The position numbers and the translations under genes are program-made. A stretch of 64,000 nt of DNA, taken from NCBI GenBank assembly GCA_945872795.1, contig CAMCAZ010000012.1:1-64000 (forward strand), in the 5' to 3' direction. Shown piece after piece: positions 21,196-21,661 of the stretch (its first letter is position 1; each line of letters opens with the position of its first letter). This DNA comes from Chryseobacterium gleum (GTDB taxonomy: Bacteria; Bacteroidota; Bacteroidia; Flavobacteriales_F; PHOS-HE28). A model generated the notes under the pieces. It saw nothing but the letters and a program-made list of their open reading frames with translations, made no database searches and was not told where the DNA came from.

Positions 21196-21266
21196 GGTCG
21201 CGTGGCCGAGTGGCTAGGCACAGCTCTGCAAAAGCTGCTACTGCGGTTCGAATCCGCACGCGACCT
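21196..21266 (+). tRNA. tRNA-Cys (GCA)
   Basis: Complete cloverleaf: acceptor GGTCGCG/CGCGACC, D-arm with GCC/GGC stem, anticodon arm CAGCT-CTGCAAA-AGCTG giving anticodon GCA, T-arm TGCGG-TTCGAAT-CCGCA. The discriminator base is T, the cysteine identity base. CCA is not encoded. The 3' end sequence is copied downstream in the tandem array. Confidence 0.96.
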
Positions 21267-21275
21267 CGATCAGCT

Positions 21276-21299
21276 GATGCCCCGGTCCCCCGGGGCATC
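21276..21299 (+). terminator. Hairpin directly after tRNA-Cys
   Basis: GATGCCCCGG (21276-21285) pairs perfectly with CCGGGGCATC (21290-21299) over a 4-nt loop, 9 nt after the tRNA. No long T-run follows, but a T-rich CTCATTTC comes next. Confidence 0.7.
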
Positions 21300-21300
21300 G

Positions 21301-21359
21301 CTCATTTCAAGGCCCCCCTCGGCCAAGCTCGCTTGAAGCCGAGGCCCCCTTGAAATGAG
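21301..21359 (+). repeat. Long hairpin in the tRNA-Cys array
   Basis: CTCATTTCAAGG at the left and the inverse CCTTGAAATGAG at the right enclose an inner CCTCGGC/GCCGAGG stem capped by the CAAGCTCGCTTGAA core. The second array unit repeats the inner stem as GGGGAGGC/GCCTCCCC with the same cap. Confidence 0.75.
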
Positions 21360-21584
21360 CCCACGGTCGCAGACCGGGGTAGCTGTCGATCGACCGGCCC
21401 CCCCACGACCGGATCCCTTGGCATCCGCACGCGACCGTCTACCGGGGAGGCCAAGCTCGCTTGAAGCCTCCCCAGCCCCATGAAGCGCCCCTGACCCAAG
21501 GTCGGGGCCTGTCGATCGACCGGCCCCCCACTACCGCCCCCTGACATCCGCACGCCCCACCACCGACGGAGCCTTCCCCTGGCC

Positions 21585-21592: not shown

Positions 21593-21661
21593 TGCACTGC
21601 CTACCTTGTTCCATACCAATTGCCCTGTTCCGGCGTTGTGTGCACTGCTGATCCTTCTGCC

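Follow-up and report, generated by a model that had tools for sequence, protein, structure and literature searches.

The tRNA-linked repeats (TLRs) of Escherichia coli are said to have been described by Egan and Landy in 1978 and by Rudd in 1999. As set out by Stenum et al. in 2021 (PMC8144298), a TLR is found in tRNA or rRNA operons, where it directly follows the mature RNA, and the last 18-19 bp or so of the unit are the same as the 3' end of that upstream RNA. A locus holds 1-5 units, which are transcribed by read-through and processed. For the E. coli TLR RrB, transcription passes terminator T1, cutting at the 3'-end copy was proposed by the same authors, and according to them most TLRs have no known function (PMC8144298). 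At E. coli tRNA-Tyr, we found that three copies of the tRNA 3' end follow one another at intervals of exactly 178 bp; the annotated rttR RNA has a length of 171 nt. The Rfam model RtT (RF00391), which represents the tyrT-type TLR, returned four strong matches in E. coli (133-138 bits). In MG1655 (L277, 1286000-1288500), the fourth of these lies between tyrT and tyrV, in addition to the three behind tyrV.

The locus examined here is part of a 64,000 nt stretch of DNA, referred to as the window. The gene order is gltX - folB - tRNA-Cys - repeats - porZ - recO, where porZ encodes PorZ of the type 9 secretion system, and the features of the repeat region are listed in Table 1. Two repeat units lie immediately downstream of the tRNA, the position also found in the pattern and tRNA-blind searches described below, where 1 to at least 5 units were seen per locus. 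No CCA is encoded at tRNA-Cys, and the 3'-end copy that closes unit 1 is identical to the tRNA at 14/14 positions, the last of them being the final base of the acceptor stem. As position, 3'-end copy and number of units all agree with the features described for TLRs, we consider it likely that this is a two-unit array of Bacteroidia TLRs, read through from the tRNA as a structured tRNA-trailer RNA that is probably cut out by tRNA 3'-end processing.

Table 1. Features of the repeat array behind tRNA-Cys (positions in the window)
Feature	Position	Strand	Basis or remark
tRNA-Cys(GCA), host gene	21196..21266	+	ARAGORN; Rfam tRNA 60 bits
Unit 1 of tRNA-linked repeat	21267..21436	+	covariance-model R1 match 21273-21427
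P1 outer stem, 5' strand (GATCAGCT)	21268..21275	+	partner 21381-21391
P2 hairpin GATGCCCCGG-TCCC-CCGGGGCATC	21276..21299	+	fold
P3 long hairpin, 13-bp perfect base	21300..21360	+	inverted repeat; arms covary between species
P3 conserved tip GGC-CAAG-CUCG-CUUG-AAGCC, unit 1	21321..21340	+	
P4 hairpin CGGTC-GCA-GACCG	21364..21376	+	fold
P1 outer stem, 3' strand (AGCTgtcGATC)	21381..21391	+	sequence
Box, unit 1 (P1 3' strand and linker)	21383..21403	+	direct repeat
P5 hairpin CGGAT-cccttggc-ATCCG	21410..21427	+	runs onto first bases of tRNA 3'-end copy
tRNA-Cys 3'-end copy 2, 14/14 exact	21423..21436	+	
Unit 2, shorter, without P1 5' strand and P2	21437..21555	+	
P3 hairpin of unit 2 (GGGGAGG...CCTCCCC)	21444..21473	+	same tip at 21449-21468
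Box of unit 2, GGGGCC TGTCGATCGACC GGCCCC palindrome	21504..21529	+	21-nt box 21509-21529
tRNA-Cys 3'-end copy 3, partial (CATCCGCACGC)	21545..21555	+	

The original prediction had proposed three kinds of block repeated in the same order behind a tRNA-Cys, and sequence inspection and a repeat search recovered all three in place, behind a tRNA recognised by both programs named in Table 1. The stretch copied at the unit ends extends from the T-loop to the 3' end and includes the 14-mer ATCCGCACGCGACC at 21252-21265. The 20-mer GGCCAAGCTCGCTTGAAGCC, found at 21321 and again at 21449, is indeed the tip of a long hairpin in each unit. The box is present and repeated, but it is 21 nt long (CTGTCGATCGACCGGCCCCCC) and starts at 21383 and 21509, rather than being 20 bases from 21384 and 21510. 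The blocks are offset by 171, 128, 126 and 122-123, and the occurrence of exact repeats of 20-21-mers within 1.1 kb is far beyond chance. Folding was one of the checks suggested with the prediction, and the 313 nt following tRNA-Cys gave a far more stable fold than dinucleotide shuffles (z = -6.9, 0/100 as good).

From 5' to 3', the plan of a full unit is P1 strand, terminator P2, P3, P4, P1 return, linker and P5, the 3' strand of P5 being the start of the tRNA 3'-end copy. Copy 2 is presumed to be the processing site that terminates unit 1. The P1 stem, with GATC on both sides, is also present in genomes G003 and G032 and in the tRNA-Ser units, and is absent from the MFE fold of the window unit taken alone; homologues of the box were likewise found in G003 and G032. 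P2 sits where the intrinsic terminator of the tRNA belongs and has a weak U-tract, and relatives without the element have a terminator in the same place. Unit 2 is shorter because it does not include this tRNA-terminator hairpin. The P3 arms differ between units 1 and 2 while the tip is unchanged. Across the family, tips are of the type CAAG-CUUG-CUUG, P4 often has a GAA or GCA triloop, and the GGAT...ATCC hairpin (P5) is kept. A three-hairpin cloverleaf was the MFE fold in 76/141 units, compared with 13/300 chimeras in which 3' halves had been swapped. In most units, the strands at the P3/P4 junction run a-b-a'-b' (GAATGC/GCATTC twice; e.g. L110 and L104), which could allow branch migration of the four-way junction, one form being a terminator (P2 and P4 extended) and the other a cloverleaf (P1 and P3).

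Comparison of the tRNA-Cys locus across 45 genomes of the genus, also suggested with the prediction, revealed that in most species tRNA-Cys is followed by a plain terminator and by the porZ promoter. The array was found in three genomes, those of the window, G032 and G003, and remnants were seen in a few others. In G003, two units of 169 bp are almost identical, and both have the tRNA 3' end and the terminator at their start. Whether or not repeats are present, nearly all relatives retain a block before porZ (21597-21650 in the window) that reads TACCTTG...CATACC(G)ATCG......GCGTTGTG. Its TAnnTTG resembles the -7 promoter box of Bacteroidota, and the remainder may be a conserved 5' leader. A search for the hairpin tip returned the exact 20-mer from the tRNA-Cys locus only (a single locus within G000), and a looser version of the motif was found behind tRNA-Ser genes, together with copies of the tRNA-Ser 3' end. 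Units were located at six loci in the genome of the window, behind tRNA-Cys, tRNA-Ser(CGA), tRNA-Ser(TGA), tRNA-Pro(CGG) and tRNA-Leu(GAG), and at one contig edge.

When a pattern made up of a T-loop, 45-75 nt and CAAGCnnGCTTG was used as a query, with the reversed pattern as a control, matches were returned from 16/45 genomes of the genus and from 54/395 Bacteroidia genomes, with 0 for the control. The occupancy found with the exact tip is a lower bound for the class, as tips vary compensatorily (CAAGCTTGCTTG, CGAGCTTGCTCG, GGAGCTTGCTCC, CAAACTTGTTTG, CGAACTTGTTCG). Outside Bacteroidia, a phylum-wide sample gave no credible match, the single match being not tRNA-like. A stricter pattern identified at least 119 loci among 84,980 GTDB species, where about 4 were estimated to be expected by chance. 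Among those listed, 109 are titled Bacteroidota; the gene in front is a tRNA at 108 of them, with 17 isotypes represented, and tmRNA at 3. The tmRNA genes with units include L108 and L115. Successive further copies of the tmRNA 3' end are found in L108, where the trans-translation gene thus serves as a host of the element.

For a test that does not presuppose the tRNA, 18 units stripped of tRNA sequence were used to train a covariance model, R1. Unit 1 of the window scored 83.7 bits (E 1.1e-14, whole genome searched), and matches were found in 38/45 genomes of the genus. Genomes contain at most about 10 to 13 matches, tandem runs among them, counts that include weak opposite-strand matches because the fold is nearly symmetric. 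A same-strand tRNA directly precedes the unit or array in 37 of the 40 loci inspected, and the other three (L323, L340 and L351) are at or near contig ends. Thus, in these loci the blocks are not scattered without tRNAs, and tandem copies in G003, G035, G038 and others show that this is not a single non-tandem structure. The hosts at the R1 loci are Ser, Pro, Leu and Cys tRNAs, and Arg was seen in a separate search. In G035, the array behind tRNA-Ser(GGA) (L078:1-700, L079:1740-2027) consists of 122-bp units with a higher-order period of 234 bp, and breaks the assembly (C104 end/C7 start). Contigs of MAGs G040, G041 and G044 stop inside or just behind a unit-bearing tRNA (L043, L054/L055, L096), and such arrays probably fragment assemblies.

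Copies of the host tRNA 3' end, with no more than 1 mismatch in 15, were found 100-330 nt downstream in 21/95 loci, compared with 0.15/95 when mismatched tRNAs were used. The identity was 15/15 in 16 and at least 14/15 in 21 of the 95 loci, and in the remainder the copy is shorter or decayed. Spacings cluster at 168-176 nt, a range that includes the 171 nt of the window. On inspection, position 59 is T or C in some tRNAs and A in the copy, and host-specific identity therefore often starts only at T60-C62. In distal units of Rikenellaceae/Alistipes (L155, - strand; L233:3190-4000), the preceding tRNA 3' copy keeps the full T-loop GTTCGA, and this junction differs from the usual TAATCC.

The arms of P3 pair within loci and not between them (13.9 versus 3.6). 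Two-sided changes were seen at 18/19 of the outer P3 pairs, with a score of 0.392 versus 0.132 and 0/500 shuffles. In an alignment of 67 model-fitted units, which leans toward structure, the covariation score was 0.481 compared with 0.123 after shuffling, with 508 versus 161 two-sided cells. Of these units, 31 have A-U and 29 have G-C at one pair of the tip, which is unpaired in none. On the tRNA strand, G-U outnumbers A-C in P3 (190:76, p 2e-12), in the terminator P2 (122:30) and in P4 (72:41, p 0.005), although equality was expected from composition (0.495); these p-values overstate independence, as the loci are phylogenetically related. The sense MFE is below the antisense in 108/141 units. 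As G-U exceeds A-C on the tRNA strand, the strand of the RNA matters, and the aligned sequences in this sense show that selection or mutation works on tRNA-sense RNA. The G-U excess could partly stem from a transcription- or replication-linked C-to-T bias. However, the P3 arms are not G+T-rich, and a transcription-linked mutation would itself imply transcription. Together, the location exclusively behind tRNAs, the tRNA 3'-end copies at unit ends, and the covariation with G-U bias on the tRNA strand support two of the three explanations originally offered, a tRNA-seeded repeat element and a structured RNA read through from the tRNA.

Units are mostly inherited with their tRNA, as scores between orthologues are usually higher. 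Most SerCGA orthologues of the genus carry a unit and some species have lost it, while in another genus both occupied and empty orthologous tRNA-Ser(TGA) sites were found. As some orthologous tRNAs carry no unit, it is not essential to the tRNA. The two tRNA-Ser units of G010 score 109.5 against each other and those of G000 score 94, compared with 73.5/80 against their orthologues, and we conclude that copying between tRNA genes happens.

In the mechanism that we propose, RNA polymerase would read through P2, a terminator expected to be leaky because its U-tract is weak in the genus. The tRNA 3'-processing machinery would then make two cuts, one behind the tRNA and the other at the 3'-end copy. 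The second cut is adopted from the proposal made for E. coli TLRs (PMC8144298). An RNA of about 171 nt, or several from an array, would be released in proportion to tRNA transcription and may act via the P3 tip, as a small RNA or a protein-binding RNA. Recombination between the tRNA 3'-end copies would lengthen or shorten arrays, and units would occasionally be copied onto other tRNA genes. The absence of a full tRNA 3'-end copy from unit 2 and many distal units counts against this explanation, as does the existence of unit-free orthologous tRNAs.

The units could instead be non-autonomous mobile elements, selfish insertions at tRNA and tmRNA 3' ends that duplicate their target, and whose RNA fold would help a trans-acting enzyme to mobilise them, possibly by way of RNA. 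The 17 isotypes plus tmRNA, each with a copy matching the host 3' end, fit this, as do the occupied and empty tRNA-Ser(TGA) sites within one genus and the G010 and G000 units that can exceed orthologues in likeness. However, gene conversion between similar tRNA-Ser genes would also give alike copies, there is no linked enzyme or viral match, and inheritance of most units with the tRNA, most SerCGA orthologues in the genus being occupied, makes the mobile element unlikely. Transposition as the sole history was rejected, as similarity mostly follows the orthologous tRNA, with some copying within genomes. We are still more doubtful of a class-wide, gene-free, RNA-dependent parasite of Bacteroidia tRNA genes, one that would target the T-arm/acceptor 3' end of tmRNA and of every kind of tRNA, duplicate this end and need its RNA fold in order to move, with the E. 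coli TLRs as its other known branch.

The 3' ends of tRNAs are classical attB sites, and the partial copies downstream of tRNA-Cys would be expected if an integrative element had successively integrated and been excised there, the third explanation originally offered. This is the least credible account and hardly tenable here. The copies bound a conserved five-helix RNA fold found at hundreds of other tRNA loci, they keep a constant distance of about 170 nt in the different taxa, and the 171- and 122-nt inserts are structured RNA. As noted from the outset, the copies enclose neither an integrase nor a cargo ORF, and 0 matches to the pattern were found in 2.9 million viral contigs. A device acting at the DNA level is also improbable, whether back-to-back terminators against antisense transcription or a REP-like palindrome read as DNA. 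The 3' half mirrors the 5' half in many units, and P4 with its A-tract consequently reads as an opposite-strand terminator; but the asymmetry of P4 favours the sense RNA too, antisense folding is weaker and the units are unlike scattered REPs. REP/BIME palindromes were also considered and rejected as the inspected matches are tRNA-linked, not dispersed among all kinds of gene. The RepRanger paper lists rttR as REP-hosting.

If the locus is a TLR array, an old E. coli puzzle is opened to comparative study by a second branch, both very large and strong in covariation. The Bacteroidia branch has hundreds of units, its orthologous sites can be occupied or empty, and hosts such as Flavobacterium, Algoriphagus, Sphingobacterium and Eudoraea are in culture. 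It makes it possible to test what the RNA binds, whether it is excised from tRNA transcripts and by what route it arrives at new tRNA genes. Where Bacteroidota MAG assemblies break off behind a tRNA, the units are probably the cause, and they are a warning that tRNA 3'-end copies need not be island scars.

A class-wide Bacteroidia TLR branch with its own fold appears to be undescribed in Rfam and in the literature searched, which comprised papers available without subscription. Within that literature, nothing was found on tRNA-downstream repeats in Bacteroidetes, and no account of TLRs outside enterobacteria. An Rfam scan of the window at gathering thresholds returned only the tRNA, RtT had no match in 8 Bacteroidia loci at E<=1, and a lax Rfam scan of eight loci and E. 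coli gave no credible known family for the units. Integrative elements at tRNA attB sites share the duplicated tRNA 3' end; in contrast, the units described here have no integrase or cargo, but a constant 170-nt structured insert and covarying tandem units. 3'ETS-leuZ is not a repeat and is not known to have a closing copy of a tRNA 3' end. Like the units, RNAs of its type derive from the 3' trailer of a tRNA, and 3'ETS-leuZ is a sponge RNA (PMC8144298). The E. coli TLRs (rttR at tyrT/tyrV; RrA/B/F at rrn operons) differ in sequence and fold, the conserved P3 tip and cloverleaf being features of the Bacteroidia units. They belong to another phylum, and host tRNAs are far more numerous in Bacteroidia (17 isotypes and tmRNA). 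Binding of Hfq and CsrA is known for RrB. In both, the units adjoin a tRNA (in E. coli also 5S rRNA), the unit terminates in a copy of the 3' end of the RNA before it, and one to several units of similar size (171 here, a step of 178 in E. coli) stand in tandem. As with RrB, the RNA comes after a terminator, and the junction ...TAATCC is common to E. coli and many of the Bacteroidia units.
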